Shown: piece after piece, positions 41,106 to 63,457 of the stretch | How the letters are laid out: each line of letters opens with the position of its first letter | Position numbering within the stretch: position 1 is the first letter of the stretch | NCBI RefSeq assembly: GCF_032854445.1 | Contig: NC_088301.1 | Coordinates: 18,717,808-18,781,807, forward strand | DNA from: Liolophura sinensis | Lineage: Eukaryota; Mollusca; Polyplacophora; Chitonida; Chitonidae | Reading direction: 5' to 3' | DNA: 64,000 bases | Program-made: the position numbers and the translations under genes | Notes under the pieces: model-generated | What the model saw: only the letters and a program-made list of their open reading frames with translations | What the model was told of the DNA's origin: nothing | Database searches by the model: none

Positions 41106-41425
41106 TTTATTTATTTATTTCATTTATTTGGCTGTACTCAAGAATATTGCACTTATACGACTGTGGCCGGGGGGAAACCCACACCATCGGAAGATTAATT
41201 GTAGTCACCACTTATTGACTTGTAAACAGAGATAGTGAATGTAAAAGTTGTACTGTGTTCTTGTCTGGGAGTGATCCTTGAAAATAATTCAACTATTCAA
41301 CTGAGTAGGGCCTAGGGGGAAATTACCCAGGACCATCCGCAGGTTGCTGGAAGATCTACCCACGTATGGCCAGAGAGGAAAATAGCATGAGCTTGCAGAA
41401 CTGGCAGCGACCGCATTGGTGATGC
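41106..41425 (-). mobile_element. SINE family 1 split by ~118 bp of unrelated sequence
   Basis: Tail part 41106-41191 and body part 41309-41425 are in order and orientation; the middle 41192-41308 has no SINE similarity. The right part reappears at 50611-50655 after the N gap. Confidence 0.75.
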
Positions 41426-41684
41426 TGCATGCTTTTCTGGCCATGAGTGCAATCCAGCATTCATTGAAAACCATTTGTCTTCAACCATTGGTGTGTATAT
41501 CTGCATGTATACCTCGCATGTGCCAACTTGCCAACTGTCAGTCGTTTATGCCAAACACTCCTGTTGCTTCAGCTATAAAATTGATGGTCATCATTTAAGT
41601 GGCATTACACAATAATCAGATGGGTAAATAAATACTGTAGGCCTGCATGTGCACATTATGTACAGGTGCCTTATACATGATGCA

Positions 41685-41894
41685 TTTATTTATTTATTTG
41701 ATTGGTGTTTTACGCCATACTCAAGAATGTTTCACTTATACAACGGCGACCAGCATTATGGTGGGAGGAAACCAGGCACAACCCGGGGGAAACCCACGAC
41801 CATCCACAGGTTACTGGCAGACCTTCCCACTTACAACCGGAGAGGAAGCCAACAAGAGCTGGAATTTAATTCACAATGGCCGCATCGGTAAGAG
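41685..41894 (-). mobile_element. SINE family 1, head-truncated (copy A)
   Basis: TTATTTATTTGATTGGTGTT through AATGGCCGCATCGGTAAGAG; counterpart of 50921-51141. Confidence 0.92.
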
Positions 41895-42727
41895 TGAACA
41901 CGATGTACTATAGGCCTACATATTCAATAGAGGGGATGCATGACCCACTTCTAGCAGCCATGTTGGAGTACTGTGGCTATACCAGCCCATGTTAAAAGGG
42001 CTCCAGTATGGCTGATTGGCTACTGTTCTGCCACAGTGATGATGTCACATGCAACCACTTTATACCGACAGAAACATTGAACCAGGTAGTAAAAAATATA
42101 CTCTTTGCTAACATATAAAAAATGCTGATAAGCACTGGCATTGTGTGTGGAAAACATGGAGTGAAGAAAAGTGCAAAATAGAAAGTCAGTAGTTTAGAAG
42201 ATAGGTTAAAGGTAAACGTTGTTTGGTGGCATTAGAATAAGACCCATAACAACTCACAGAAAATACTGAATAGGGCTTACATAAAAAAAAGTAAAGTATA
42301 TCAAAATACATAATTTCACTCCATAGAAGGAAGAAAATGACACCACTAAATTACACGTAAATAAATAATATCACACATAATGCTAAAAAATTTATTTCAA
42401 TGGAGAAAATTTAAATTAATTTAAGATGATTTTATGAGCCAAATACCTAGATGTGGCGCGTATCTTAACCGGACTTATTATCTCCCTTTAACAGGAAGGC
42501 CCACCCGGTATTTTGAAAACAGTTCCAGACTTTAGGAAGTTCAGTTTTGTAACATTTTGACATTCAAAATGGTACTTATGATTCTGTTTTGTGAACGCTT
42601 TAATCAATAGCCTTTTTAAGTATTTTTCTTATTATTCTATTCATTTTACTGATAGCGGAAGTTGTGATCGCGCCACAACAGTTAATGGCGTATTGAGAAA
42701 GTTGGTTGACGGTTGTGTTCATAGACT

Positions 42728-45700
42728 ATGGCAGGGAGCGAAGACGGCACGTATTACATCGAACTTAGCCCCAATCCGATACGATTTGATCCTGTCAGCA
42801 AGCTTACCAACGTATTTTTCGATGATGCGAATAAACAAGTAATGTATCCCTGATTTTTTTTTGTAACGCTACTTCAGTGCATGTCTCATTTACTGTGTGA
42901 CCAGGCGACGTATACATGTAGCTCCCTGCTTGGCTTTAGCTTTGTTTTTGTTTAGAGACAGAATTCAGAGGGGTTGTCGTGAAGACAAAGTTATTGCAGT
43001 TGTTGTTTGCTGACCGGCTTGTCAGATTTTCATATGTGAAAATAGATTTTTCAACAAATTGACGTCAGTATATCACGTGACAATAACCTTAACTTTACAA
43101 ATCCCATTTCATGTGGGAAGGGGCTAATTGTGTAGGACGGATCGGAAGCTAGAGACCATGTGATCTCCTTAGTAACAAGTGGGTGAAGAAAACAGTTATC
43201 CCAACATTATTGCTTAGAAAATGCCTATTTTTGAATCACAGTCAGCAATCTTTTTTCCATTGGATTTTTATAATTTGCAGCTTTCTAAATAGTATGAGTA
43301 TTTCTGCAGAGCTAACGTGCTATTTTGTACAACCAAGCCTTACTGGTCGCTAGCGAAGTGGTAAAAAGTGACCTTTTCCATAATGCTTTAACATTGGGTG
43401 GCCATTTTGTTATGGACACAAAAGGATAGTGACATGACCTCCAACTTCCGACTTGTCTTACAGAATAAAACACCACATGACAAATAAAAGATACCTTGAT
43501 GATCTGCCCTAATATTTATCATTTGCTCTTGCTGGGCAAACGCTTCACATTGCGAGATTGTTACCTGACCAATGAACTCCAAATCTGGTAATGGATGAAA
43601 CTGTGTATATCACATGACGAAGATTCACTCAGATTGGAAATAATACCAGTGATGTCAGAGTAGGATTTGTCTTACTCAGAATCTTTCAGGATGAACAACC
43701 TTATGAGGTGGCAGCCTACAGAATTTGTTGTGTAAGAGAGCGCTGAGACGCCATTGATGCTGACAAACTATATCATTCCTGGTATTAAAACTCAGACTGT
43801 GCCTGGGAAAAACCACACAGAACATAATAAACACTTCCCAATGTACACGAGACAAATAGACTTGCCCATCATATTGATTGGTGGCATTGGGACAATTAAG
43901 TGGTCTTCAAACAACCGAAGATTGAGCAAATTCCCATCAATTGGTTCTTTTTTATGTAGCCACTCTCTTGGTGCCTTGGTGGACTATAAATGGTCAGCAA
44001 CACTCATGATAACTGCTTGTTTTTGAGTAATTTGACACGCCAGTTAGTCTGTGTCACATGTGGGAATGTTTTGTCAAAATTTAAAAAATGATTATTAAAA
44101 ATAAGTGCCAACAGTATTATTCCAAACATTTTATGTTGTTCTTTTTGTCTCACGTCCCCAGGTGTTTGCAGTGCGATCAGGTGGAGCTACAGGTGTTGTC
44201 GTTAAAGGTCCAGATGAGAAATCGACAATCACTTTTAGGTTGGTATTGGCATACAGAACGTGTATGTTAAATTTTATAATTCTAGAACTATGACTTTTTT
44301 ATAACTCTTGTGGTTGGTCATCTTATTGAATGAATGCAGTGAGGAAGTGGACAAACATAGCATGTGTAGTTTACAGCAGAATATCGGTATTTGATTTGCA
44401 CAAGCATCAAAGTTTGTTAGCCTCCACCAATTCTTGTCAACTCTCATTTTTTTGACAAGAGTCTCACTTTGCTCTTTATTTTCCCCCCTTTCTTGGTCCT
44501 ATTTGGGGGCCTCTGTGGCGGAGATGGTTGGCGTACCAGTTTGACGCATTGATGCTGGAGCCTCTTTTCAGTGCAATTGCTGTGAGATCAAGTTTGCCTC
44601 ATGCTGGCTTCTTCTCTCCCTGTTTGTGAGAAGGTCTGGCAGCAACCTCAGATGGTTGTGGGTTTCCTCACACAATACTGCTGGCCGCTGTCATACAAGT
44701 GAAATATTCTTAAGTATGGCATAAAACACCAATCAAATAAATAAATAAATAAATCTTTAGTCCTGTTTGGGTTTTATACCACATACTTTCAAATGTGAGA
44801 ACATATCAAGCTCTTTAGCATCATACATATTACTGACTCGGGTGAAGGTGATATGGAGATTGCAATTCGATTTATAAAAGATTACTTTCATTCAACCTGG
44901 AAATGGTGATAATGCATAAGTTTCACAGTGACTTTTCAGAGTATTTTGTTTCTTGCAAATTTTTGGCTAATTTTCCTTTTTTTTTGTAGAATGGAAGACC
45001 GGGGTGAGTTGAGCTCTATAAAGTTCTCCTATGACATGAAGATATTGGCCATACAAAGATCACCAAAATCTGTGGTGAGCATTCTACCATAAATCATTTG
45101 AATTTTATGCCCCTACTGGAGAAGGTACATTACTGAACATGAATGTGGAAAAATGGATGTTCCAAGTTAAGATTGTTTTATATTTTCATCAGTAACAGTA
45201 AGCTAATATGGAACTACTGTATCAGTAACTTAACGGTGAAAATACGCTCATTAGAGACCACTAACATGTGATCAGTATGGTGCTTGAGTTCAGCTCTCTT
45301 GGCTTTCCTACAGACTTACATTGGTAACTAAATTTGGTTCCAACAGAGACGGTTTTAGTTTACATTTGCTCCATCAGATTTTCTTAATTCAATTAACTAA
45401 ATGACGTCTTTTAACTAAAAATTCTATAGTACAGCACAAAAAACACAAGTGATCTGATTAATAACTAATCTTTTCTCTGGTCAGGAGTTCATAAATTTCG
45501 CAGAAGATTCTACCCCGGACTTGAGAGAATACTCACAGACTTGTAAGGTGAGCGTGACATTGATGTTTCCATTGGCACGGTAATGGTGGTATTTATATTT
45601 TATAAAATTGTCAAAACTAAATGGTCAGTGTAATTCCTCCACTAAAATTTTGAAATGTTACAGTGTTTATATTGGCACATTTTCAGGATTCCCATTTTTA

Positions 45701-48700
45701 GCTCCCCTTTTGAAGTAAGGAGAGGTATTGTGAGTGGGGGTTCAAATGGTGTCAGTGGTGATGTCGGTGTCTAGCTTTTGACCAATTGCAGTGCAGTGGC
45801 CACCCATAGTACATAGATAGCCAATCATCGGTAGTGATATTCGTATCAAAGACCAAGGAAGTCTTTTGCCTCATAGCTCAACATTTTGCTTAGCTATTCA
45901 CAGGGCTGCAATTGCCTCCCATAGTATGTGACTTGCCAAGTGCAGTTCATGATTTACATATCAAATATTTACCCCTGTGGTAAATTTGAGCGCTAATTCC
46001 CCGCAGTGTCTTTTACCACCACAATGATTTACAACTCCATAACGTATGAAGTCAATGCTCTGCAACCCTCATGCATACAATAAACAGTCATAGTTGTGAC
46101 AATATAATAATTTTGGTGTTTCTTGTTGATTTAATGGCAGGATCTTAGCACTATACAATCAAAGGGTAATATCTGTGTATGACAATATCAGTCATTCTAA
46201 TTTTTGATGGTTTAGAGGTCAAACACATGCAATAAAATCAAGGTGTTTTCGGTGTTCATGTTGTATCTTATCATTTGTGTTAGATAAAAAACAGTAGCAA
46301 TTTATGACAATGTATTTTATTTTATTCAGGGAAAGTCAACTTCAATTATTGGATTCAACTGGACAAACATCAATGAGATTGTCTTCATAACGAATCAGGG
46401 TCTTGAATTTTACCAGGTCAGGTGACACAACATCCTCAACTATTACCTGTAATTTGTTAAACTTAAAAAAGGTGTCAAGTGTCTGAGGGCCAGTTGTTCA
46501 AAAGTGTATTAAATGTTAAGCCAGACTTGAATCTTAATACGAATCTTGTTCTGATGCAAAAAGTAATATGAATTAAGTCCAGACTGAAGTTAATACTGGA
46601 ATTAAGTGCTAATACACTTTTGAACAACTGGGGCCAGTTTCACAAAGGGGCATATGATATATTTTTATCCTACATTTGCCGTATGATATTTTATAGACCA
46701 CTATTACCATGCCATTGTGTTTTATATGTGATTCTCATACATGTATGAAATCTTTGTGAAACTGGGCCCAGGTCCTATGTTTTTATTATCTGTATTTTAA
46801 CTGCTGACAGCCTAATTGTTTTCAAAGATATGTATATGTCTACATACATGCATAAATCTTATGTTATAGTTTGCTGTATTTTTTTATTTTCTGTTCAAAT
46901 TTATTCCCTCCACCTATAAACCTGTTCTTAATATTACTGAAATGTGAAAGAACAGTCAAATGATGTTGTTGATTGCAGTTTTAATTTGTTTAAAACTCCC
47001 CTAAAGAACTTTCCCTTTGTACAGTGGTGAGTAGTTTTACAGTTGTAGCCTAAGTTGACTGTAATTATCATAGAAACGTATGTTTTTGACATGTGTGGCC
47101 TAGGTAGTTAAGGTCAACTTAGCCTACAATAGCTTGTGCTAGAGGCCTCTGGAGCTTAATATTGCTCACCTTTGCCAAGTTACTGGCACACTTTCCATAG
47201 TTTGAAAAACAAGCAGTCCTCAGTGAGTTACTGGCACACTTTCCATAGTGTGAAAAGCCAGCAGTCCGCATTGAGTTACTGGCACGCTTTCCATAGTGTG
47301 AAAAGCGAGCAGTCCGCAGTGAGTTACTGGCACACTTTCCATAGTGTGAAAAGCCAGCAGTCCGCAGTGAGTTACTGGCATACTTTCCATAGTGTGAAAA
47401 GCGAGCAGTCTGCAGTGAGTTACTGGCACACTTTCCATAGTGTGAAAAGCGAGCGGTCCGCAGTGAGTTACTGGCACGCTTTCCATAGTGTGAAAAGCGA
47501 GCAGTCCGCAGTGAGTTACTGGCACGCTTTCCATAGTGTGAAAAGCGAGCAGTCCGCAGTGAGTTACTGGCACACTTTCCATAGTGTGAAAAGCCAGCAG
47601 TCCGCAGTGAGTTACTGGCATACTTTCCATAGTGTGAAAAGCGAGCAGTCTGCAGTGAGTTACTGGCACACTTTCCATAGTGTGAAAAGCGAGCGGTCCG
47701 CAGTGAGTTACTGGCACACTTTCCATAGTGTGAAAAGCGAGCAGTCCGCAGTGAGTTACTGGCACGCTTTCCATAATGTGAAAAGCGAGCAGTCCGCTTT
47801 GAGGTACTGGCACACTTTCCATAGTGTGAAAAGCGAGCAGTCTGCAGTGAGTTACTGGCACACTTTCCGTAGTGTGAAAAGCGAGCAGTCCGTAGTGAGG
47901 TACTGGCACACTTTTCATAGTGTGAAAAGCAAGCTGTCCGCTTTGAGGTACTGGCACACTTTCCATCGTGTGAAAAGTGAGCAGTCCGCAGTGAGTTACT
48001 GGCACACTTTCCATAGTGTGAAAAGTGAGCAGTCCGCAGTGAGTTACTGGCACAGTTTCCGTAATGTGAAAAGCAAGTATTCCACAGTGAACTGCATGTA
48101 ATACCACACACTAGAGAGTCATCTCATGGCATCAAGGTATTGAGGACAGTGAAAACTGAACACAGGGGAATCTTCAAAACTTCCTTGTTTAAGAATATCA
48201 AATACCTAAAATTTCATCCAAAAAAGTGCATATTTAGAAGCAAATAAAGGTCACAAAATATTTTTTTTTTGGTGCTGTTACTAAATTCACTATTTTCCAG
48301 TTGGATATCATCCGATATTCGAAGCAAACCTCAAAATACTTTTCTGAAATCAATAGAACTCTCAGAATCAGGAAAAATTGGCAAGTCAGTCATGGACGAA
48401 ATTTGTGGTCATTTAGTAGGATAAGTTATTTGACTGGTTTCATTGTTTCAGTCTATCTCTGAAAACTCTCTTGCTATAGGCAACTCATATTTGTTGGTCA
48501 CCATGAAATGATCACGTCCCTTCTAACTTTAATATGAAGTGTTTTATTTATTTATATTTTTATGCTTGTATGTTTGCAGGTGTATCCAGAAAAGAAGTCT
48601 CTGAAATGCCTGAAGACATTTGGCACAAGTGTAAACTGGTTTGATTGGCTGGTGAGTTTTCATTGCATCCAGCCTGTCCAATCAGCAATAAGCTTAGAAT

Positions 48701-50080
48701 ATTGTGACAATGCCTAAGTTATAGATGTTGGTTCAAGTCTATTCAAGTCTGAAACATTCATAAAAAGACACACGTTTTATTAGCCTTGCAAGGGTCTTCC
48801 TTACTCTTGACAGACATTCAAACCAAACTGTGTGGTTTCATGATGAGCACTATCATGACAGGGTATATTATAGAGATATAAAGTGCACTTAACTACGGGT
48901 TACTTAACACATATGTACACTTCATGAAACAGGCCCCAGGAGGTTTTTCCAGGAGGGTAGTAACAGGAGAAAATTCACAAATCACATGTTAGCTTGGCTG
49001 TCAGCATAAGGTAAAAACCCAAGCACCATGTCAGGGATTCAGTATATTTTAGGGTGAGATGTCATGTTTGGTGTCTTTGACATTGCAATTTAGTGAGGCA
49101 GCATTTGGAGTAGTCTGCTACAAGATGACACTATTGTGATGTGACTGAAATAATGCTGGAATTGATGTTTAACCTGAAGGTAAACAAAAAAAGAAACAAA
49201 GACAAGAAAATACCCCACCCCCCACCCCATGTCTTATTGTTAGGTAATTTGTTTTCCAGTGAGATGTCCACTAACTTATTTCATTTTACCTTGTCAGCCT
49301 CAGAGTGCAGTTCTCCTGCTCTCCACGGGATCTCTTGGAAATGTCCTCCAGCCTTTCCACTTCAGGGTAAGGGATTTTAATATTGTGTCATAACTACACG
49401 TCCTATGCGTGCTGTGTCTGTAAACATGCAAATGTGGTCCAAGGACATATTTTACGTAACAGGGGTAATTTGACCCTGGCATAACGTTCATGGCAAGGTA
49501 TAGTAAAGACACATGTTACCATGGAAAATGAAATGATCGAACATTTCAACTGCTTAATCAACTGACACCCTGTATATTTCCAGGGGAACAAGTTACAGCG
49601 TACATGTACCAACCTGTACATCTTTTGATAGAGCCAGGTGCAGCTAATGTACTGCATCCTGTATTTTGTGTGACACCTATTAAGCTATTTTTCACCTGTT
49701 TTTCTTCATCTTTTGAAAAAGATAGGTGCAGCTAATGTACTGCATTCTGTATTTCTTGTGAACCCTATTAAGTTATGTTTCACCTGTATCTTTTGAAATA
49801 GCCAGGTGCTGCTAATGTACTGCATTCTGTATTTCATGTGACACCTGTTAAGTTATGTTTCACCTGTTTTTTTCATCCTTTGATACAGCCTGGTGCAGCT
49901 AATGTACTGCATCTTGTATTTCGTGTGACACCTGTTAAGTTATGTTTCACCGTTTTTTCTTCATCTTTTGATACAGCCAGGCACAGTGCTGAAGCTGCCC
50001 AAATTTGAGGTGGATCTACCTGTGGTTCCCAAACCTGCCAAACTGTGTCTGCTTGAGAGAGATGTCAGCATGGCCAACAT
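42728..50080 (+). CDS. RMC1: RMC1 exons 1-8, first (upstream) copy, ends at assembly gap
   Basis: Exons: 42728-42838, 44162-44238, 44990-45074, 45485-45547, 46330-46416, 48580-48651, 49298-49366 and 49977-50080, all with GT-AG boundaries and matching phases. Together they encode the first 222 codons plus two bases of an RMC1 protein: start MAGSEDGTYYIELSPNP, then VFFDDANKQ, VFAVRSGGATGVVVKGPD, ILAIQRSPKSV, EIVFITNQGLEFYQ, SVNWFDWL, GNVLQPFHFR and LPKFEVDLP. The blocks match the vertebrate protein (C18orf8/Mic1) I know. RMC1 (Bulli in Drosophila) is the third subunit of the MON1-CCZ1 Rab7 exchange factor on late endosomes; the N-terminal half is a beta-propeller. This copy stops after exon 8, where a 200-N gap begins, so by itself it cannot encode a full protein. 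It is nearly identical to the downstream copy and is either the other haplotype or a partial tandem duplicate. Confidence 0.9.
43073..43081 (+). promoter_or_regulatory. CACGTG E-box resembling a CLEAR element, RMC1 intron 1 (copy A)
   Basis: TCACGTGAC, about 345 bp after the ATG, has eight of the ten bases of the TFEB/TFE3 CLEAR palindrome GTCACGTGAC. It is conserved in copy B at 52320-52328. Confidence 0.3.
44505..44754 (+). mobile_element. SINE family 1, full length (RMC1 intron 2, copy A)
   Basis: GGGGGCCTCTGTGGCGGAGA head, B-box-like GAGATCAAGTTT, and AAATAAATAAATAAAT tail. Confidence 0.93.
46487..46635. mobile_element. MITE-like element with GGGCCAGTTGTTCAAAAGTG inverted ends (copy A)
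   Basis: The left end GGGCCAGTTGTTCAAAAGTG pairs with the right end ACACTTTTGAACAACTGGGG; about 149 bp, the inside is also partly palindromic. No coding capacity. RMC1 intron 5. Confidence 0.8.
46631..46771. mobile_element. Second MITE-like element with GGCCAGTTTCACAAAG ends (copy A)
   Basis: Left end GGGGCCAGTTTCACAAAGGG pairs with right end CTTTGTGAAACTGGGCCC; it abuts and slightly overlaps the previous element. Confidence 0.75.
47179..48090 (+). repeat. 48-bp minisatellite, 19 units (RMC1 intron 5, copy A)
   Basis: Unit begins GTTACTGGCACACTTTCCAT and ends CAGTGA; the length of 48 is a multiple of three, which keeps several frames open in both strands and produces spurious ORFs of about 300 residues. 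A five-unit block (240 bp) is repeated: 47281-47520 and 47521-47760 are nearly identical. Confidence 0.95.
48185..48422 (+). repeat. Dispersed repeat of unknown type, copy 2 (RMC1 intron 5)
   Basis: Same element as at 1361-1588 in the same orientation; its duplicate in block B is at 56878-57110. Confidence 0.8.
49622..49976 (+). repeat. ~87-bp tandem repeats of the exon 8 acceptor region (copy A)
   Basis: Four units starting near 49622, 49709, 49789 and 49876 precede the real exon 8 acceptor region at 49963. Each has the pattern TTTTGATA, then (C)AGCC(A/T)GGTGCAG, matching the true CTTTTGATACAG/CCAGGCACAG. Unit 4 keeps a pyrimidine tract and a full ACAG acceptor 88 bases upstream of the true site. 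Confidence 0.85.
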
Positions 50081-50124
50081 GTGAGACACTATTTACAAGT
50101 ACATGAGGAGTTCAACGGAGAATG

Positions 50125-50265
50125 GGTGTGTCAGCCACCTGTGGAAGGTCATGGGTTAACCTAGGGCCCAGTTTCTTCCCACCTTAACACTACATTGCCG
50201 TGGTATAAGTGAAATATTCAAGAGTACAGCGTAAAATGCCAGTCATATAAATAAATAACTCAATG
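50125..50265 (+). mobile_element. SINE family 1, degenerate 3' part (RMC1 intron 8, copy A)
   Basis: CCACCTGTGGAAGGTCATGG, CAGTTTCTTCCCACCTTAAC and GGTATAAGTGAAATATTCAA; counterpart at 58645-58787. Confidence 0.75.
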
Positions 50266-50364
50266 GGAAAAGCAAGTACAGAATTTGCCAATGTGCTGCA
50301 TGTGCTCCTAGACAGCATTTTCTTTGTCGTTTGTCAAAAATGTATATGTGAAACTTGCATTCAT

Positions 50365-50655
50365 TTATTTATTTGATTAGAGTCTTGTGCCATACTCAAG
50401 ACTATGTCACNNNNNNNNNNNNNNNNNNNNNNNNNNNNNNNNNNNNNNNNNNNNNNNNNNNNNNNNNNNNNNNNNNNNNNNNNNNNNNNNNNNNNNNNNN
50501 NNNNNNNNNNNNNNNNNNNNNNNNNNNNNNNNNNNNNNNNNNNNNNNNNNNNNNNNNNNNNNNNNNNNNNNNNNNNNNNNNNNNNNNNNNNNNNNNNNNN
50601 NNNNNNNNNNACCAGCATGAGCTTGCAGAACTGGCAGCGACCACATTGGTGATGC
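50365..50655 (-). mobile_element. SINE family 1 spanning the N gap
   Basis: TTTATTTATTTGATTAGAGT before the gap and AGCATGAGCTTGCAGAACTG after it. The two sides correspond to different SINE copies (58890 and 41385), so this is a chimeric join, not one element. Confidence 0.8.
50411..50610. other. Assembly gap of 200 N
   Basis: Exactly 200 undetermined bases lie inside a minus-oriented SINE. The sequence just left of the gap equals the SINE at 58890-58936. The sequence just right of it equals the SINE remnant at about 41390. The gap therefore joins two ends that each break in the same repeat pair, and the round length marks a scaffold join rather than a measured gap. Confidence 0.97.
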
Positions 50656-50920
50656 TGCATGCTCGTCTGGCCATTAGTGCAATCCAGCATTCACTGAAAA
50701 CCACTTGTCTTCAAACCATTGGTGTGTATCACATATCTGCATGTATACCTCGCATGTGCCAACTTGCCAACTGTCAGTGGTTTATGCCAAACACTCCTGT
50801 TGCTTCAGCTATAAAATTGATGGTCGTCATATAAGTGGCATTACATAATAATCAGATGGGTAAATAAATACTGTAGGCCTGCATGTGCACATTATGTACA
50901 GGTGCCTTAAACACGATGGA

Positions 50921-51141
50921 TTTATTTATTATTTATTTGATTGGTGTTTAACGCCATACTCAAGAATATTTCACTTATACGACGGCGACCGTCGTTATAC
51001 GACGATTATGGTGGGAGGAAACCAGGCACAACTCGGGGAAACCCACAACCATCTGCAGGTTGCTGGCAGACCTTCCCACTTACAACCGGAGAGAAGTCAA
51101 CATGAGCTGGACTTGAATTCACACCGACCGCATTGGTAAGA
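50921..51141 (-). mobile_element. SINE family 1, head-truncated (copy B)
   Basis: As 41685-41894 but with a short local duplication (ATACGACGGCGACCGTCGTTATACGACGA region near 50978-51005) absent from copy A. Confidence 0.9.
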
Positions 51142-51970
51142 GTAAACACGATGTACTATAGGCCTACATATTCAATAGAGGGGATGCATGACCCACTTCT
51201 AGCAGCCATGTTGGAGTACTGTGGCTATACCAGCCCATGTTAAAAGGGCTCCAGTATGGCTGATTGGCTACTGTTCTGCCAGAGTGATGATGTCACATTC
51301 AACCACTTTATACCGCCAGAAACATTGAACCAAGTCAGAAATATACTCTTTGCTAACATATAAAGAATGCTGATAAGCACTGGCATTGTGTGTGCAAAAC
51401 ATGGAGTGAAGAAAAGTGCAAAATAGAAAGTCAATAGTTTAGAAGGTAGGTTAAAGGTAAACGTTGTTTGATGGCATTAGAATAAGCTCCATGACAACTC
51501 AAAGAAAAATACCGTACTGAATAGGGCTTACATAAAAAAAAAAGTAAAATATATCAAAATACATAATTTCACTCCATAGAAGGAAGAAAATGACACCACT
51601 AAATAAATAATATCACACATAATGCTAAAAAATTTATTTCAATGAGAAAAATTTAAATTAATTTAAGATGATTTTATGAGCCAAATACCTAGATGTGGCG
51701 CGTATCGTAACCGGACTTATTATCTCCCTTTAAAAGGAAGGCCCACCCGGTTATTTTGAAAACAGTTCCAGACTTTAAGAAGTTCAATTTTGTAACATTT
51801 TGACATTCAAAATGGTACTTATGATTCTGTTTTGTGAACGCTTTAATCAATAGCCTTTTTAAGTATTTTTCTCATTATTATATTCATTTTACTGATAGCG
51901 GAAGTTGTGATCGCGCCACAACAGTTAATGGCGTATTGAGAAAGTTGATTGACGGTTGTGTTCATAAACT

Positions 51971-54900
51971 ATGGCAGGGAGCGAAGACGGCACGTACTAC
52001 ATCGAGCTTAGCCCCAATCCGATACGATTTGACCCTGTCAGCAAGCTTACCAACGTATTTTTCGATGATGCGAATAAACAAGTAATGTATTGCTGAGTTT
52101 TTTTGTAACGCTACTTCAGTTCATGCCTCGTTTACTTGTGACCAGGCGACGTAGGCCTATACATGTAGCTCCCCGCTTGGCTGTTAGCTTTGTTTTTCTT
52201 TAGAGACAGAATTCAGGGGGTTGTCGTGAAGACAAGTTATTTTGCAGCTGTTGTTTGCTGACCCGCTTGTCAGATTTTCATATGTGAAAGTAGATTTTTC
52301 ACAAATTGAAGTCAGTATATCACGTGACAATAACCTCAACTTTACAAATCCCATTTCATGTGGAAAGGGGCTAATTGTGTAGGACGGATCGGAAGCAAGA
52401 GACCATGTGATCTCCTTAGTAACAAGTGGGTGAAGAAAACAGTTATCCCAACATTATTGCTTAGAAAATGCCTATTTTTGAATCACAGTCAGCAATCTTT
52501 TTTCCATTGGATTTGTATAATTTGCAGCTTTCTAAATAGTATGAATATTTCTGCAGAGCTGACGTGCTATTTTGTACAACCAAGCCTTACTGGTCGCTAG
52601 CGAAGTGGTAAAAAGTGACCTTTTCCATAATGCTTTAACATTGGGTGGCCATTTTGTTATTGACACAAAAGGATGGTGACATGACCTCCAACTTCCGACT
52701 TGTCTTACAGAATAAAACACCACATGACAAATACAGATACCTTGATGATCTGCCCTAATATTTATCATTGCTCTTGCTGGCAAACTCTTCACATTGCGAG
52801 ATTGTTACCTGACCAATGAACTCCAAATCTGGTAATGGATGAATCTGTGTTGGCCTGTGTCATGTGTTGACATGACGAAGATTCACTCAGATTGGAAATA
52901 ATACCAGTGATGTCAGAGTAGGATATGTCTTACTCTGAATCGTTCAGGATGAACAACCTTATGAGGTGGCAGCCTACAGAATTTGTTGTGTAAGAGAGCA
53001 CTGAGACGCCATTGATGCTGACAAACTATATCATTCCTGGTATTAAAACTCAAACTGCGCCTGGGAAAAACCACACAGAACTTGATAAACACTTCCCAAT
53101 GTACATGAGACAAATAGACTTGCCCATCATATTGATTGGTGGCATTGGGACAATTAAGTGGTCTTCAACCAACCAAAGATTGAGCAAATTTCCATCAATT
53201 GGTTCTTTTTTATGTAGCCACTCTCTATCTGCTCTTGGTGCCTTGGTGGACTATAAATGGTCAGCAACACTCATGATAACTGCTTGTTTTTGAGTAATTT
53301 GACATGCCAGTTAGCCTGTGTCACATGTGGGAATGTTTTGTCAAAATTTAAAAAATGATTATTAAAAATAAGTGCCAACAGTATTATTCCAAACATTTTA
53401 TGTTGTTCTTTTTGTCGCGCGTCCCCAGGTGTTTGCAGTGCGATCAGGTGGAGCTACAGGTGTTGTCGTTAAAGGTCCAGATGAGAAATCGACAATCACT
53501 TTTAGGTTGGTATCGGCATACAGAACGTATATGTTAAATTTTATTATTCTAGAACTATGACTTTTTTATAACTCTTGTGGTTGGTCATCTTATTGAATGA
53601 ATGCAGTGAGGAAGTGGACAAACATAGCATGTGTAGTTTACAGCAGAATATCGGTATTTGATTTGCACAAGCATCAAAGTTTGTTAGCCTCCACCAATTC
53701 TTGTCAACTCTCATTTTTTTGACAAGAGTCTCACTGGGCTCTTTATTTTCCCCCCTTTCTTGGTCCTATTTGGGGGCCTCTGTGGCCGAGATGGTTGGCG
53801 TACCAGTTTGACGCATTGATGCTGGAGCCTCTTTTTCAGTGCAGTTGCTGTGAGTTCAAGTTTGCCTCATGCTGGCTTCTTCTCTCCCTGTTTGTGGGAA
53901 GGTCTGGCAGCAACCTCAGATGGTTGTGGGTTTCCTCGCACAATGCTGCTGGCTGCTGTCATACAAGTGAAATATTCTTGAGTATGGCATAAAACACCAA
54001 TCAAATAAATAAATAAATAAATCTTTAGTCCTGTTTGGGTTTTATACCATATACTTTCAAATGTGAGAACATATCAAGCTCTTTAGCATCATACATATTA
54101 CTGACTCGGGTGAAGGTGATATGGAGATTGCAATTCGATTTATAAAAGATTACTTTCATTCAACCTGGAAATGGTGATAATGCATAAGTTTCACAGTGAC
54201 TTTTCAGAGTATTTTGTTTCTTGCAAATTTTCGGCTAATTTTCCTTTTTTTGTAGAATGGAAGACCGGGGTGAGTTGAGCTCTATAAAGTTCTCCTATGA
54301 CATGAAGATATTGGCCATACAAAGATCACCAAAATCTGTGGTGAGCATTCTACTATAAATCTTTTAAATTTTATGCCCCTACTGGAGAACATTACTGAAC
54401 ATGAATGTGGAAAAATGGATGTTCCAAGTTAAGATTGTTTTATATTTTCATCAGCAACAGTAAGCTAATATGGAACTACTGTATCAGTAACTTAACCGTG
54501 AAAATACGCTCATTAGAGACCACTAACATGTGATCAGTATGGTGCTTGAGTTCAGCTCTCTTGGCTTTCCTACAGACTTACATTGGTAACTAAATTTGGT
54601 TCCTACAGAGACGGTTTTAGTTTACATTTGCTCCATCAGATTTTCTTAATTCAATTAACTAAATGATGTCTTTTAACTAAAAATTCTATAGTACAGCACA
54701 AAAAACACAAGTGATCTGATTAATAACTAATCTTTTCTCTGGTCAGGAGTTCATAAATTTCGCAGAAGATTCTACCCCGGACTTGAGAGAATACTCACAG
54801 ACTTGTAAGGTGAGTGTGACATTGATGTTTCCATTGGCACGGTAATGGTGGTATTTATATTTTATAAAATTGTCAAAACTAAATGGTCAGTGTAATTCCT

Positions 54901-57900
54901 CCACTAAAATTTTGAAATGTTACAGTGTTTATATTGGCACATTTTCAGGATTCCCATTTTTAGCTCCCCTTTTGAGGAGAGGTATTGTGAGTGGGGGATC
55001 AAATGGTGTCAGTGGTGATGTCGGTGTCTACCTTTTGACCAATTGCAGTGCAGTGGCCACCCATAGTACATAGATAGCCAATCATCGGTAGTGATATTCG
55101 TATCAAAGACCAAGGAAGTCTTTTGCCTCATAGCTCAACATTTTGCTTTGCTATTCACAGGGCTTCAGTTGCCTCCCATAGTATGTGACTTGCCAAGTGC
55201 AGTTCATGATTTACATATCAAATATTTACCTCTGTGGTAAATTTGAGCGCTAATTCCCCGCAGTGTCTTTTACCACCACAATGATTTACAACTCCATAAC
55301 ATATGAAGTCAATGCTCTGCAATCCTCATGCATACAATAAACAGTCATAGTTGTGGCAATATAATAATTTTGGTGTTTCTTGTTGATTTAATGGCAAGAT
55401 CTTAGCACAATACAATTAGAGGGTAATATCTGTGTATGACAATATCAGTCATTCTACTTTTTGGGGGTTTAGAGGTCAAACAAACACATGCAATAAAATC
55501 AAGATGCTTTCAGTGTTGTATCTTGTATCTTATCATTTGTGTTAGATAAAAAACAGTAGCAATTTTTGACAATGTATTTTATTTTATTCAGGGAAAGTCA
55601 ACTTCAATTATTGGATTCAACTGGACAAACATCAATGAGATTGTCTTCATAACGAATCAGGGTCTTGAATTTTACCAGGTCAGGTGACCCAACATCCTCA
55701 ACTATTACCTGTAATTTGTTAAACTTAAAAAAGGTGTCAAGTGTCTGAGGGCCAGTTGTTCAAAAGTGTATTAAATGTTAAGCCAGACTTGAATCTTAAT
55801 ACTAATCTTGTTCTGATGCAAAAGTAATATGAATTAAGTCCAGAATGAAGTTAATACTGGGATTAAGTGCTAATACACTTTTGAACAACTGGGGCCAGTT
55901 TCACAAAGGGGCATATGATATATTTTTATCCTACATTTGCCTACATTTTTATTATCTGTATTTTAACTACTGACAGCCTAATTGTTTTCAAAGATATGTA
56001 TATGTCTACATACATGCATAAATCTTATGTTATAGTTTGCTGTATTTTTTTTATTTTCTGTTCAAACTTGTTCCCTCCACCTATAAACCTGTTCTTAATA
56101 TTACTGAAATGTGAAAGAACAGTCAAATGATGTTGTTGATTGCAGTTTTAATTTGTTTAAAACTCCCCTTAAGAACTTTCCCTTTGTACAGTGGTGAGTA
56201 GTTTTACAGTTGTAGCCTAAGTTGACTGTAATTATCATAGAAACGTATGTTTTTGACATGTGTGGCCTAGGTAGTTAAGGTCAACTTAGCCTACAATAGC
56301 TTGTGCTAGAGGCCTCTGGAGCTTAATATTGCTCACCTTTGCCAAGTTACTGGCACACTTTCCATAGTTTGAAAAACAAGCAGTCCTCAGTGAGTTACTG
56401 GCACACTTTCCATAGTGTGAAAAGCCAGCAGTCCGCAGTGAGTTACTGGCACACTTTCCATAGTGTGAAAAGCCAGCAGTCCGCAGTGAGTTACTGGCAC
56501 ACTTTCCATAGTGTGAAAAGCCAGCAGTCCGCAGTGAGTTACTGGCACGCTTTCCGTAGTGTGAAAAGCGAGCAGTCCGCAGTGAGGTACTGGTACACTT
56601 TTCATAGTGTGAAAAGCAAGCTGTCCGCTTTGAGGTACTGGCACACTTTCCATAGTGTGAAAAGTGAGCAGTCCGCAGTGAGTTACTGGCACACTTTCCA
56701 TAGTGTGAAAAGCGAGCAGTCCGCAGTGAGTTATTGGCACAGTTTCCGTAATGTGAAAAGCAAGTTTTCCGCAGTGAACAGCATGTAATACCACACACTA
56801 GAGTCATCTCATGGCATCAAGGTATTGAGGACAGTGAAAACTGAACACGGGAATCTTCAAAACTTCCTTGTTTAAGAATATCAAATACCTAAAATTTCAT
56901 CCAAAAAAGTGCATATTTAGAAGCAAATAAAGGTCACAAAATATTTTTTTTTTGGTGCTGTTACTAAATTCACTATTTTCCAGTTGAATATCATCCGATA
57001 TTCGAAGCAAACCTCAAAATACTTTTCTGAAATCAATAGAACTCTCAGAATCAGGAAAAATTGGCAAGTCAGTCATGGACGAAATTTGTGGTCATTTAGT
57101 AGGATAAGTTATTTGACTGGTTTTATTGTTTCAGTCTATCTCTGAAAACTCTCTTGCTATAGGCAACTCATATTTGTTGGTCACAATGAAGTGATCACAT
57201 CCCTTCTAACTTTAATATGAAGTGTATTATTTATTTATATTTTTATGCTTGTATGTTTGCAGGTGTATCCAGAAAAGAAGTCGCTGAAATGCCTGAAGAC
57301 GTTTGGCACAAGTGTAAACTGGTTTGATTGGCTGGTGAGTTTTCATTGCATCCAGCCTGTCCAATCAGCAATAAGCTTAGAATATTGTGACAATGCCTAA
57401 GTTATAGACATTGGTTCAAGTCTATTCAAGTCTGAAGCATTCATAAAAAGACATGTTTTATTAGCCTTGCAAGGGTCTTCCTTACTCTTGACAGACATTC
57501 AAACCAAACTGTGTGGTTTCATGATGAGCACTATCATGACAGGATATATTATAGAGATATAAAGTGCACTTAACTACGGGTTACTTAACACATATGTACA
57601 CTTCATCATTTGTATGTACACTTCAGCATTTGGAGTAGTCTGCTACAAGATGACACTATTGTGATGTGACTGAAATAATGCTGGAATTGATGTTTAACCT
57701 GAAGGTAAACAAAAAAAGAAACAAAGACAAGAAAATACCCCACCCCCCACCCCATGTCTTATTGTTAGGTAATTTGTTGCCCAGTGAGATGTCCACTGAC
57801 TTATTTCATTTTACCTTGTCAGCCTCAGAGTGCAGTTCTCCTGCTCTCCACGGGATCTCTTGGAAATGTCCTCCAGCCTTTCCACTTCAGGGTAAGGGAT

Positions 57901-60900
57901 TTTAATATTGTGTCATAACTACATGTCCTATGCGTGCTGTGTCTGTAAACATGCAAATGTGGTCGAAGGACATATTTTACGTAACAGGGGTAATTTGACC
58001 CTGGCATAACGTTCATGGCAAGGTATAGTAAAGACACACGTTACCATGGAAAATGAAATGATCGAACATTTCAACTGCTTAATCAACTGACACCCTGTAT
58101 ATTTGCAGGGGAACAAGTTACAGCGTACATTTACCAACCTGTACATCTTTTGATAGAGCCAGGTGCAGCTAATGTACTGCATCCTGTATTTTGTGTGACA
58201 CCTATTAAGCTATTTTTCACCTGTTTTTCTTCATCTTTTGAAAAAGATAGGTGCAGCTAATGTACTGCATTCTGTATTTCTTGTGAACCCTATTAAGTTA
58301 TGTTTCACCTGTATCTTTTGAAATAGCCAGGTGCGGCTAATGTACTGCATTCTGTATTTCATGTGACACCTGTTAAGTTATGTTTCACCTGTTTTTTTTT
58401 CATCCTTTGATACAGCCTAATGCAGCTAATGTACTGCATCTTGTATTTCGTGTGACACCTGTTAAGTTATGTTTCACCGTTTTTTCTTCATCTTTTGATA
58501 CAGCCAGGCACAGTGCTGAAGCTGCCCAAATTTGAGGTGGATCTACCTGTGGTTCCCAAACCTGCCAAACTGTGTCTGCTTGAAAGAGATGTCAGCATGG
58601 CCAACATGTGAGACACTATTTACATGTATATGAGGAGTTCAACGGAGAATGGGTGTGTCAGCCACCTGTGGAAGGTCATGGGTTTACCTAGGGCCCAGTT
58701 TCTTCCCACCTTAACACTACATTGCCGTGGTATAAGTGAAATATTCAAGAGTACGGCGTAAAATGCCAGTCATATAAATAAATAACTCAATGGGAAAAGC
58801 AAGTACAGAATTTGCCAATGTGCTGCATGTGCTCCTAGACAGCATTTTCTTTGTCGTTTGTCAAAAATGTATATGTGAAACTTGCATTCATTTATTTATT
58901 TGATTAGAGTCTTGTGCCATACTCAAGACTATGTCACTTATACGATTGCGGCCCGTGGAAACCCACGACATTCCTCAGGTTTTTGGCAGGTAATATGTGT
59001 ACAGTATGGGAATACTACAGACAGCCATATCTCAGCTGATGTTGTATTTTTATACAGTGCATCTGTATGGCTTTGACATTTGCAGACATTCAGTATGAGT
59101 ATGTTTAAATTTCTTAAAAGTGATATGCGTATATTTTGGTTGGAAGTATCATTTGTTGCACAGAGTAAATGCAATGTGTCATAGGCAATGAAAACTAGCA
59201 AGCTGTTTGGATCTGTGGAGTTATGGCCCTTTGTTTCCTGACATAATATCAAACAGTTTTAATGGACGACTACATTTATCTCACCTCTTGATATCATCCA
59301 TATTTCCTGACTCTGTGCTACTGGGGACGATATAATTGCTTGTATTCACTATTTTTGTTCTTTGTTCTCTTTTTAGTTATGGCCACTTATACATCATTGT
59401 TCTCCGTCATCAACCAAAAGGGGGCAGCACTGGTGCAGAAATTGTGCTGTATCAGCTTCAGAAGTAAGGCTCTTCTTGTACCACAGTTTTACCGAATTGA
59501 TCATTCATAAGACTTCTCATTGTGTTAGCTCTCTGGAAACCTGTGATCAACCTTATTGCCCCAGGAGAGCTCGCCCAAATGCAATGGCAGAGTGATTAGA
59601 GGTTTCCTGTCATAAGCAGGATACCCAGGTTCAATCCCAGACATGCCAAGTCATGCCTAAGACATAAAATAGACAATAATTGTATTTTCTCATTTACTAT
59701 CCATGTGGGAATGCACCAAGTGTTGGACACCTAGGTTGCACTGTTTTGTGGCTTGGTAGTGTGTCATGCCTGATGTTCAGTGATAAAAAATTAAAACACT
59801 AAAAGTTTGATTATAAATGTATTGAAATTTAAAGTGGAAAAGGAAGTATTTTTATTTGATAAATTTAATTTAATTTTGAATTGCGCAGGGAAAGTCCAGC
59901 AAGGAAGACTGACATCCTGCGGTTGGGAATGAGTGGCCGGTTTGCCACAAATGTGGTGGATAACCTGGTTGTGGTTCATCATCAAGCATCTAAGGTGAGA
60001 AACATTGGGAACATAAGGGGTGCATCATCAAACATCTAAGGTGAGAAACATTGAGAATATAAGGGGTGCATCATCAATCAGCAAAGGTGAGAAACTGAGA
60101 ACATATGGGGTGCATCATCAAGCATCTGAGGTGAGAAACTTTGGGAACATAAGGGGTGCAACATCAAGCATCTAAGGTGAGAAACATTGGGAACATAAGG
60201 GGTACATCATCAAACATCTAAGGTGAGAAACATTGAGAACATAAGGGGTGCATCATCAGTCAGCTAAGGTGAGAAACTGAGAACATATGGGGTGCATCAT
60301 CAAGCATCTGAGGTGAGAAACATTGAGAACATAAGGGGTTCATCATCAAGCATCTAAGGTGAGAAACATTGACAACATAAGGGGTGCATCGCCAAGCATC
60401 TAAGGTGAGAAACATTGAGAACATAAAGGGTTCATCATCAAGCATCTAAGGTGAGAAGCATTGAGAACATAAGGGGTTCATCATCAAGCATTTAAGATGA
60501 GAAACATTGAGAACATAAGGGGTGCATTGCCAAGCATCTAAGGTGAGAAACAATGAGAACATATGGGGTGCATCATCAAGCATCTAAGGTGAGAAACATT
60601 GAGAACATAAAGTGTGCATCATCAAGCATCTAAGGTGAGAAACATTGAGAACATAAAGGGTGCATCATCAAGCATATAAGGTGAGAAATATTGAGAACAT
60701 AAGGGGTTCATCATCAAGCATCTAAGGTGAGAAACATTGAGAACATAAAGGGTGCATCATCAAGCATCTAAGGTGAGAAACATTGAGAACATAAAGGGTG
60801 CATCATCAAGCATCTAAGATGAGAAATATTAAGAACATAAGGGGTGCATCATCAAGCATATAAGGTGAGAAATATTGAGAACATAAAACACCAATCAAAT

Positions 60901-63457
60901 ATTGTAAATGCCTTTTTATTTGCGTTTTACTAATATTCGCATATTTTGCAGCAAACACATTTTCGCAAAAATAAGTGCCATTGAATATAAAACGCAAGTA
61001 AGTAATTTATTAATGTAGCATGCATTACAATTATAAATTTGTTAATAAACACCACAGTTCTAAACATTTCAAACATGTTAATTAGAAATACCTAATTAGA
61101 ATGTATTCCGTCTAAGTATCACCAAATTACGATGTTGTTGTTGTTGACTTATTCCCGCGGTTAGAGACATACAAATCGAAAATTTGTACTGGGCATGTGT
61201 AGAGAGGCTGTTTTTTTATCGACTGTACCTGCCTTCCAGTCAGATCACCTTTCCAACCCACCCGATACGTCACATGGGGGTTTCCGCACTTCAAACTTCC
61301 TTTTCATAATGACGATTTCTGAGAAATTTGCTCAAATCTGTCACAGTTCACTCAGAGTTTCACACACACTGCTGATGCATGAGAATTAAACAGTGGGATT
61401 TATTTATCTCACATTTAATCCTTCGTCGTCTCCTGGAGGGAGTGACATGAATATTTGCTCACACAGCAGGTGTTGACGTTTCTGTATTGAAGTTTGATTT
61501 TCGTTTATCAGTTGTCCAAAAATTCTCCTAAGATCTGCAAAAGCAAATGTGTCCTCTTACCGAATCCGCGAAAGTTTATACCTGTGAATAAAAAGGCATT
61601 TACAGTTGATAAATAAATAAATCAGATTGATATGTATTTATGCTGGACCCTTGTTCAGATCAGTAGTAGCTCACACAGATTAGAATGATTTGATATTTGA
61701 TAATAATGAAGTTGAGGCATTACCACGTGAATGTTAAAGGTTTCGCAAGCTTATGATCCACATGCCGAGATCATTATATTAAACAATATTCATTATCCGT
61801 TTCAGACATCTATGGTATTTGATATCAAGCTGGAAGGAGAGAATGATGGCTATATCACCCATCACCACCCAGTGTTGTCTCCCTTGCCCATCAAACCTTG
61901 CAAATTACTGCTTCCTGGTAAGAACTGTCAAATAGGTGACGGGGTTCCTCTGTGGCCAAGGTGGATAGCACGCCAGCGTGGCACAATGATAGTCGTGGAT
62001 TTCTGCCGCATCCTGCCCGGTTTCCTCCCACCATAATGCTGGCTGCCGTCGTATACGTGAGATATTCTTGAGTATGGTGTAAAACATCAGTCAAATAAAT
62101 AAATAAATTTGTTGTATGAACTCAGTTCAATTTTCATTTTAATGATCATTCACAAGCGTGTGTTTGTAAGAGTACCTGTAAAATAATGCGATGATTTCAA
62201 GGATATATATATTTGCACGCAGTGTGTCATGTTCTTATTTTATTCTCTCTGTTTTAGGATTAAACATCCCCTCAGGGCCCGAGAAGACAGAATATACCTG
62301 TGAACTGTGTATCCTTTTGATCTTAAATTTTATCGCATGACATGCACACTGTTTAACATGCACTTGCTAAAGCATGATGACTCTACACTTTGTGTGGTCT
62401 ACAATATGGCAGTGGCTTAAAATTTAGCATTATACCCCTTTTATCAAATTTAAGCTAAGGTCAAGTTGATGAAATTCTTTATCATTTTGCACATAAGATA
62501 CATTAGAAGCTTAATTATAGACAAATCTGGTAAATCTTGACTTTGTGGCAGGTAAATTTGAAACAGTGGTAATATGATGACTATTATTATGCTGTATATG
62601 TACATGCTTTTATTATTATTTACTAATAATAATAATTTACATGTACATGCTTTTATTATTATTTACTACTACTAATAATTTACATTTACATGTAATTTTC
62701 CTTGGTCTCAGATGTATGTTACGTAACTTTCAATTCTTAACCCTCTGTCAGATTCTCCAAATTGGATTGTCTTCCAGCCGAACATAGTGATTGATGCCAA
62801 ATTAGGTGATTTGTTCACAGATTTATTCAGATGACCAGAATTAATTCCAGTGCAGCAATTTGTCAGTAGTTTTGTGTGCGCTTGTCTCCTTTTAGAATTT
62901 TCACTCACATGTTCATAATTTCTGTTCTTGCTTTGAGAGTAGCTGTTATTAAAGAGAATCCTACATAGGTATGGATGTGGTTATTCTTTTCAGTATTTAT
63001 TCTTGATTATTGTACTGAAATTCTATATCTGTTTAAGTGTATCTCACCCAATTCATTTAAGTCTTTTTGAACTTACATTCAGTGGAACATTTTATGGATC
63101 ATTCTGTCATTTATGGTCTCGTTATTAGCACGCCCACTGCAGCAAAATAACCCAAGAGCATCTCATCGATGCTTTTGCTGTGAGTTCAAGTCCAGCTCAC
63201 ACTGGCTAACTGACCGGGTTGTGCCAGGGAAAATCTGTCCAGCAAACCAGCAAATGGTCATGGGTTTCCTCCAGACTCTGCCCGGTTTCCTCCCATCATA
63301 ATGCTGGCTGCGATCGTATAAGTGAAATATCCTTGAGTATGGTGTAAAACTCCAATATGAAGTAAATAAATAAATAATGGTCCCAAATACTCCAACAGGT
63401 TGTCTGTGGTATGTACAGCTGAAACTGAACCCTCTGGTGATCATGATTCCTGACAAG
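51971..63457 (+). CDS. RMC1: RMC1, regulator of MON1-CCZ1, exons 1-14 (3' end beyond window)
   Basis: Exons: 51971-52081, 53429-53505, 54256-54340, 54747-54809, 55592-55678, 57263-57334, 57823-57891, 58504-58607, 59377-59463, 59889-59994, 61806-61917, 62258-62308, 62752-62805 and 63399-63457. All are phase-consistent and encode about 379 residues; the vertebrate protein is about 650, so the C-terminal alpha-solenoid lies beyond the right edge. Beyond exon 8 the match continues with YGHLYIIVLRHQPKGGSTGAE, NVVDNLVVVHHQ, FDIKLEGENDG, HHPVL, SPNWIVFQPNI and LWYVQLKLNPLVIMIPDK. The protein forms a trimer with MON1 and CCZ1 that activates Rab7 for late-endosome and autophagosome maturation. The initiator ATG (context CTATGG) gives an N-terminus of the expected length. 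Introns 5, 7 and 10 hold minisatellites; those in 7 and 10 repeat splice-site sequence. This is the intact copy and should be used as the gene model. Confidence 0.93.
52320..52328 (+). promoter_or_regulatory. CACGTG E-box resembling a CLEAR element, RMC1 intron 1 (copy B)
   Basis: Identical TCACGTGAC to copy A; same distance from the exon 1 ATG. Confidence 0.3.
53774..54022 (+). mobile_element. SINE family 1, full length (RMC1 intron 2, copy B)
   Basis: Same insertion as 44505-44754 at the same intronic site. Confidence 0.93.
55749..55945. mobile_element. First MITE plus remnant of the second (copy B)
   Basis: The first element (55749-55896) is intact. Of the second only the left third remains (to about 55942, CCTACATTTGCC), then sequence resumes with CTACATTTTTATTATCTG, so the right part is deleted relative to copy A. 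Confidence 0.8.
56346..56777 (+). repeat. 48-bp minisatellite, 9 units (RMC1 intron 5, copy B)
   Basis: Same unit and same flanks as the array at 47179-48090 but ten units shorter. First and last units correspond between the copies, so the difference is internal expansion or contraction. Confidence 0.95.
58146..58503 (+). repeat. ~87-bp tandem repeats of the exon 8 acceptor region (copy B)
   Basis: Same four units as in copy A, with a few substitutions (for example CAGCCTAATGCAG in unit 4). Confidence 0.85.
58645..58787 (+). mobile_element. SINE family 1, degenerate 3' part (RMC1 intron 8, copy B)
   Basis: Counterpart of 50125-50265. Confidence 0.75.
58888..58992 (-). mobile_element. SINE family 1, truncated (RMC1 intron 8)
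   Basis: TTTATTTATTTGATTAGAGT through CCTCAGGTTTTTGGCAGG. This is the intact version of the SINE that is cut by the gap in copy A. Confidence 0.88.
59578..59650 (+). mobile_element. tRNA-like sequence, probably a third SINE head
   Basis: TGGCAGAGTGATTAGAGG resembles a pol III A box; GGTTCAATCCC (59628-59638) fits the B box exactly; TCCTG/CAGGA can form an anticodon stem. The loop lacks U33 and there is no clean acceptor stem, so this is not a functional tRNA gene. In RMC1 intron 9. Confidence 0.5.
59975..60890 (+). repeat. ~46-bp minisatellite built from the exon 10 end and its 5' splice site
   Basis: About 20 units of TCATCAAGCATCTAAGGTGAG plus AAACATTGAGAACATAAGGGGTGCA. The first unit is the last 20 bases of RMC1 exon 10 (ends 59994) with its GTGAG donor; all later units repeat AAG/GTGAGAAAC in intron 10. 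A variant pair near 60066 and 60247 (AATCAGC / AGTCAGC forms) suggests a longer period of about four units. Confidence 0.92.
61941..62109 (+). mobile_element. SINE family 1 with internal deletion (RMC1 intron 11)
   Basis: Head GGGGTTCCTCTGTGGCCAAG is joined near 61988 to GTGGATTTCTGCCGCATCCT; tail of AAATAAATAAAT. It begins only 24 bases after exon 11. Confidence 0.9.
63113..63378 (+). mobile_element. SINE family 1, full length (RMC1 intron 13)
   Basis: ATGGTCTCGTTATTAGCACG head (diverged), GTGAGTTCAAGTCCAGCTCA, and AAATAAATAAATAAT tail ending 20 bases before the exon 14 acceptor. Confidence 0.9.

Follow-up and report, generated by a model that had tools for sequence, protein, structure and literature searches.

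The front half of RMC1 is present on both sides of an assembly gap

RMC1 regulates the MON1-CCZ1 complex, an activator of Rab7. In the chiton Liolophura sinensis, a 64-kb window of one scaffold (the window being the whole stretch of DNA analysed here) contains the front half of RMC1 twice. This raises the question of whether the animal carries a truncated second copy of the gene, or whether the assembly has set two alleles of a single gene side by side. Our analysis leaves us almost certain of the latter, that is, that the repeat is a false heterotype duplication and not a feature of the genome.

Positions are given in window numbering unless they carry the prefix C7, which denotes the contig containing the window. 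Self-BLAST of the window revealed direct repeats at 41384-50410 and 50614-58937, and a scan for ambiguous bases found a sole N run of exactly 200 N between them (50411-50610), interpreted as a scaffolding spacer. This confirms the first-pass annotation, which had described direct copies of ~8.3-9 kb around exactly 200 N. The first repeat, copy A (41384-50410, forward strand, 9,027 bp), forms the right-hand end of the left contig and reaches the final base 5' of the gap. The second, copy B (50611-58937, forward strand, 8,327 bp when measured from the gap edge), is the left end of the middle contig. Its similarity to copy A starts at the fourth base 3' of the gap, the first three bases being an overhang with no counterpart in the compared segment. 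Each copy contains the RMC1 upstream region and exons 1-8, and copy B runs on into the remainder of the gene. The sequence immediately left of 41384 has no partner among window self-matches longer than 400 bp. Chance or low-complexity similarity is ruled out as the origin of the repeat, as several kb of intron sequence align between the two copies. The region where copy A would join copy B is the gap itself, so there is no joined sequence there to read. The gap had also been placed inside a SINE, which is clear only for the A side, where the last ~52 bases lie within a dispersed repeat, the B side having only a weak ~40-bp repeat match.

Searches recover one complete RMC1

The RMC1 gene model was built by eye from DNA only, using open reading frames and splice motifs and guided by the human protein. 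All exons in the window lie on the forward strand. Exons 1-8 are located at 42728-42838, 44162-44238, 44990-45074, 45485-45547, 46330-46416, 48580-48651, 49298-49366, and 49977-50080 in copy A, and at 51971-52081, 53429-53505, 54256-54340, 54747-54809, 55592-55678, 57263-57334, 57823-57891, and 58504-58607 in copy B. To the right of copy B, exons 9-13 follow at 59377-59463, 59889-59994, 61806-61917, 62752-62805, and 63399-63457. The gene is predicted to have 21 exons, with exons 14-21 past the window on the same scaffold. The earlier claim that copy B continues into exons 9-14 is thus correct as far as exon 13, but exon 14 starts at 64493 (window numbering), beyond the window.

Together, the copy B exons and the 13 downstream exons encode a complete RMC1 protein of 642 amino acids, and the copy A exons encode identical residues. 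Residues 5-636 of the predicted protein align to the Regulator of MON1-CCZ1 complex in PDB entry 9l0d_C (E 5.7e-247), and the protein also aligns to 8c7g_A (E 5.2e-135). Both Pfam domains, RMC1_N and RMC1_C, are present and the alignment is full-length, which places the protein in the RMC1/Mic1 family (PF21029, PF07035). The chiton gene resembles known members of this family in being aligned nearly end to end over its 642 amino acids, and differs in that copy A by itself would encode the first 222 residues only, which we interpret as an allele cut by the end of a contig.

We searched the whole genome assembly (609,464,459 bases in 632 contigs) for further copies. Family searches returned four RMC1_N matches, two per copy, and 27 RMC1_C matches, all within one stretch downstream of copy B. 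Two nucleotide probes were also used. The first, taken from the right end of the repeated segment, gave 60 matches (from the best 40 of 1,922 candidates scored) and the second, from exon 1 and intron 1, gave 41 (from the best 40 of 607 candidates scored). Among these matches, only copies A and B were full-length for either probe, and the rest were short repeat matches. We reject a further RMC1 copy, whether dispersed or a processed pseudogene, as the two probes (among their best candidates) and the two family searches recover nothing beyond A, B, and a single downstream set. Phage records queried with the right-hand end of copy A gave no match, as expected.

Copies A and B are diverged but encode the same residues

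A MAFFT alignment of the two copies has 8,044 matching and 211 mismatching columns, corresponding to 2.56% substitutions. It has 40 gap runs, one of which is the 3-base overhang, leaving 39 internal indel runs. Per 500-column block, substitutions range from 0 to 5.3%, with the peak in the first block and values of at most 1.4% in the last three. The largest length difference, 480 bp, corresponds to precisely ten repeats of a 48-bp VNTR in intron 5 (forward strand), which has 19.0 units in copy A (47178-48090) and 9.0 units in copy B (56345-56777).

Over the 668 coding nucleotides of exons 1-8, the copies differ at six positions, all synonymous, and the 222 encoded residues are identical. Our recount of both copies agrees with the first-pass annotation in the number and kind of these differences and in their placement (three in exon 1, two in exon 6, and one in exon 8). 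Internal splice dinucleotides are AG/GT throughout, in both copies alike. The six changes fall in 150.3 synonymous sites (about 4%), with none in 515.7 non-synonymous sites; by simple arithmetic, an unconstrained copy at such synonymous divergence would be expected to have accumulated ~10 amino acid changes. The lack of amino acid change would be explained if both copies were working alleles. We rejected the idea that copy A is a decaying fragment, given that it has no amino acid change and has lost no splice site. The two copies thus combine divergence compatible with allelic differences and coding constraint in both, as in heterotype duplications, although the published mean heterozygosity is lower, at 1.24%. 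We infer that copies A and B are alleles of one locus.

The next gap downstream has the same pattern

The window and 133.8 kb adjoining it to the left and right form 197,792 contiguous bases, in which there are two N runs, each of 200. The second gap (C7:18811273-18811472) lies 43 kb downstream of the first and is also bordered by a repeat: C7:18798319-18811272 recurs as C7:18811473-18824525, a segment of ~13 kb that directly abuts the gap on either side. Across 12,628 aligned bases, the two segments differ by 207 mismatches (1.64%), and their alignment has 47 indel runs. From its sequence, C7:18798319-18824525 is apparently a second false duplication. Contig ends overlap their neighbour at both of the two gaps, with the caveat that these cases are not fully independent, as both gaps border the same 42.9-kb middle contig. 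Such an overlap at the second gap is expected if haplotype overlaps were incompletely removed, whereas it would be an unrelated coincidence if RMC1 had truly been duplicated in tandem, which favours an assembly artefact.

The assembly and known false duplications

The assembly was published under the name Liolophura japonica, and the scaffold containing the window is its scaffold_3 (PMC11068029); a published correction has changed the species name to L. sinensis. As published, the 632 scaffolds total 609,495,693 bp and were assembled from 8.77 Gb of HiFi reads (mean read 8,347 bp, 14x) with hifiasm, followed by purge_dups, which uses read depth, and then YaHS (PMC11068029). The assembly has 1,110 gaps, and heterozygosity was estimated by GenomeScope at 1.24% (PMC11068029). 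By arithmetic, the published gap count and N content correspond to 200 N per gap. Leftover haplotype overlaps are to be expected from this recipe at this heterozygosity.

Four hallmarks of false duplications have been described: low read depth, a gap that separates the copies, linked reads that are discordant or spanned, and one-copy k-mers (PMC9516828). A gap between copies on one scaffold was absent from the true duplications that the paper reports examining, and false duplications arose in relatively more divergent haplotype stretches (PMC9516828). In the chiton, the 200 N at 50411-50610 split the copies on one scaffold, and a second case occurs at the next gap. The locus shares with the heterotype false duplications of the Vertebrate Genomes Project its diverged copies on one scaffold, the gap between them, and part of a gene repeated beside itself, comparable to ZBTB11 in that paper (PMC9516828). 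It differs in that the chiton was assembled from 14x HiFi reads, and the likeness here rests, of the four hallmarks, on the gap. A search of a literature library found no publication dealing with both Liolophura and false duplication.

False duplication versus real duplication of RMC1

The false duplication is supported by the geometry of the copies, by copy number as determined by search, by the completeness of one gene, by the exclusively synonymous coding differences, and by the pattern at the neighbouring gap. The suggestion that two allelic contigs were scaffolded end to end, made when the locus was first annotated, gains support from the overlap at the second gap, from the assembly recipe and heterozygosity, and from the finding of one complete gene with no third copy among the scored hits. 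Two observations stand against an artefact: the divergence between the copies (2.56%) is about twice the genome-wide heterozygosity (1.24%), and purge_dups had already been applied to the assembly (PMC11068029).

Under the allelic reading, the sequenced chiton would be heterozygous across this stretch. The left contig would end in one haplotype (copy A) and the next contig would start in the other (copy B), with ends overlapping by 8-9 kb. This overlap would have escaped purging, and Hi-C scaffolding would then have set both contigs adjacent to each other with a 200-N spacer. The animal would have a single 21-exon RMC1, and copy A would be its other allele, cut at the contig end.

The first alternative is that the 5' half of RMC1 was truly, and recently, duplicated in tandem and that the gap conceals the junction; the upstream copy would then be a fragment that bears a promoter and encodes ~222 residues. 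The copies are indeed adjacent and in direct orientation, gaps can occur in true repeats, and a junction inside the gap would yield an identical local geometry. We nevertheless consider this very improbable: an unrelated segment overlaps in the same way at the neighbouring gap, the supposed fragment has neither an amino acid change nor a lost splice site despite about 4% synonymous divergence, and the true duplications examined in PMC9516828 are described there as lacking such gaps. Still less credible, to the point of being negligible, is a duplication that is real on one haplotype only (a structural polymorphism at which the assembly broke), which is compatible with the sequence alone and supported by none of our results, would leave the matching pattern at the next gap to be explained separately, and has no junction sequence in the window.

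As biology, the duplicated half gene is then nothing new. As an entry in a reference genome it matters more, since a truncated extra RMC1 could be mistaken for a gene gain or a paralogue. With overlaps of 8-13 kb at both gaps and 1,110 gaps in the assembly, the number of false partial duplications may be much higher, by extrapolation from two cases that are not independent, and duplication claims resting on this assembly deserve a depth check. A partial genome duplication has been reported in L. japonica, with its parts on separate pseudochromosomes (PMC12005716), and the present assembly has 13 pseudomolecules versus 2n = 24 (PMC11068029). If the reported duplication is based on this assembly, retained haplotypes are worth considering.

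Minisatellites repeat RMC1 splice junctions

Beyond the window, RMC1 exon 18 forms an array of 40 head-to-tail copies with an exact period of 88 bp (C7:18786827-18790327). Each unit consists of the 69-nt exon (23 codons) and a 19-nt spacer that carries both donor and acceptor. The donor GT is present in 40/40 copies, the acceptor AG in 39/40, and the reading frame is open in 39/40. Deviation from the consensus is 0.54% of positions in the spacer and 3.3% in the exon part. The distinct changes comprise 11 synonymous and 13 non-synonymous, where 7.1 synonymous would be expected (P 0.048), a borderline value from copies that are not independent. As copy 1 is preceded by an ordinary intron and has an acceptor rich in pyrimidines, it would, on the simplest interpretation, be used and the others spliced out. 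A bolder alternative, in which the copies are not spliced out as inert intron but stay usable as serial or alternative exons and yield many versions of RMC1 in chitons, seems quite unlikely to us, judging from the DNA.

A second array (59973-60886, 46 bp x 20) repeats the donor of exon 10, its unit consisting of the last ~20 nt of the exon, the 5' splice site, and the beginning of the intron; 16 matches to the donor motif were counted in it. Repetition is less exact at the acceptor of exon 8, where an array of 88 bp x 4.2 lies at 49619-49981 in copy A and 58144-58508 in copy B, and in the pyrimidine tract before the last exon, exon 21 (27 bp x 8.3, C7:18792589-18792812). Both kinds of array contain or adjoin 3' splice sites of RMC1.

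Minisatellites lying across exon-intron boundaries have been described in amphioxus as "mirages" (PMC3087553, PMC3902484). In both the exon 18 and the exon 10 donor arrays, the repeat unit likewise includes the host exon-intron boundary. The RMC1 arrays resemble the amphioxus mirages, as described in those papers, in repeating splice junctions (the donor of exon 10, and the whole of exon 18 with its donor and acceptor). They differ in having a mollusc host, and in that the exon 18 array repeats an entire exon, in 40 copies and in exact 88-bp register. A literature search with titles-level coverage found no junction-spanning minisatellites in molluscs, which is weak evidence of absence.

We compiled 35 arrays from 124 TRF rows across the 197,792 bp, keeping periods of 15-200 with 2.5 or more copies and discarding overlaps; arrays in both haplotype copies count twice. 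The motif AGGTRAG occurs in 3/35 array units, compared with a mean of 0.96 for length-matched random segments (151/2000 draws reach 3), which is not significant; in shuffled units of the same 35 arrays the mean is 0.47. We do not claim a general enrichment of splice-junction minisatellites in the genome. Further minisatellites are located in the window at 20019-21869, 17575-18399, and 22203-22609; one array among them is 44 bp x 42, and another, with a 25-bp unit, carries ACAGGTAAG, a donor-like motif.

Other observations on the assembly

Of six pieces of unplaced contigs, three (C40, C250, and C450) were searched against the assembly, and each has multiple tandem matches on several further unplaced contigs (5 to 15 candidates scored). 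These matches are satellite-like, and the three contigs are uninformative on haplotype retention. Elsewhere in the genome, eight mollusc-type haemocyanin domain matches lie in tandem within 11.4 kb.
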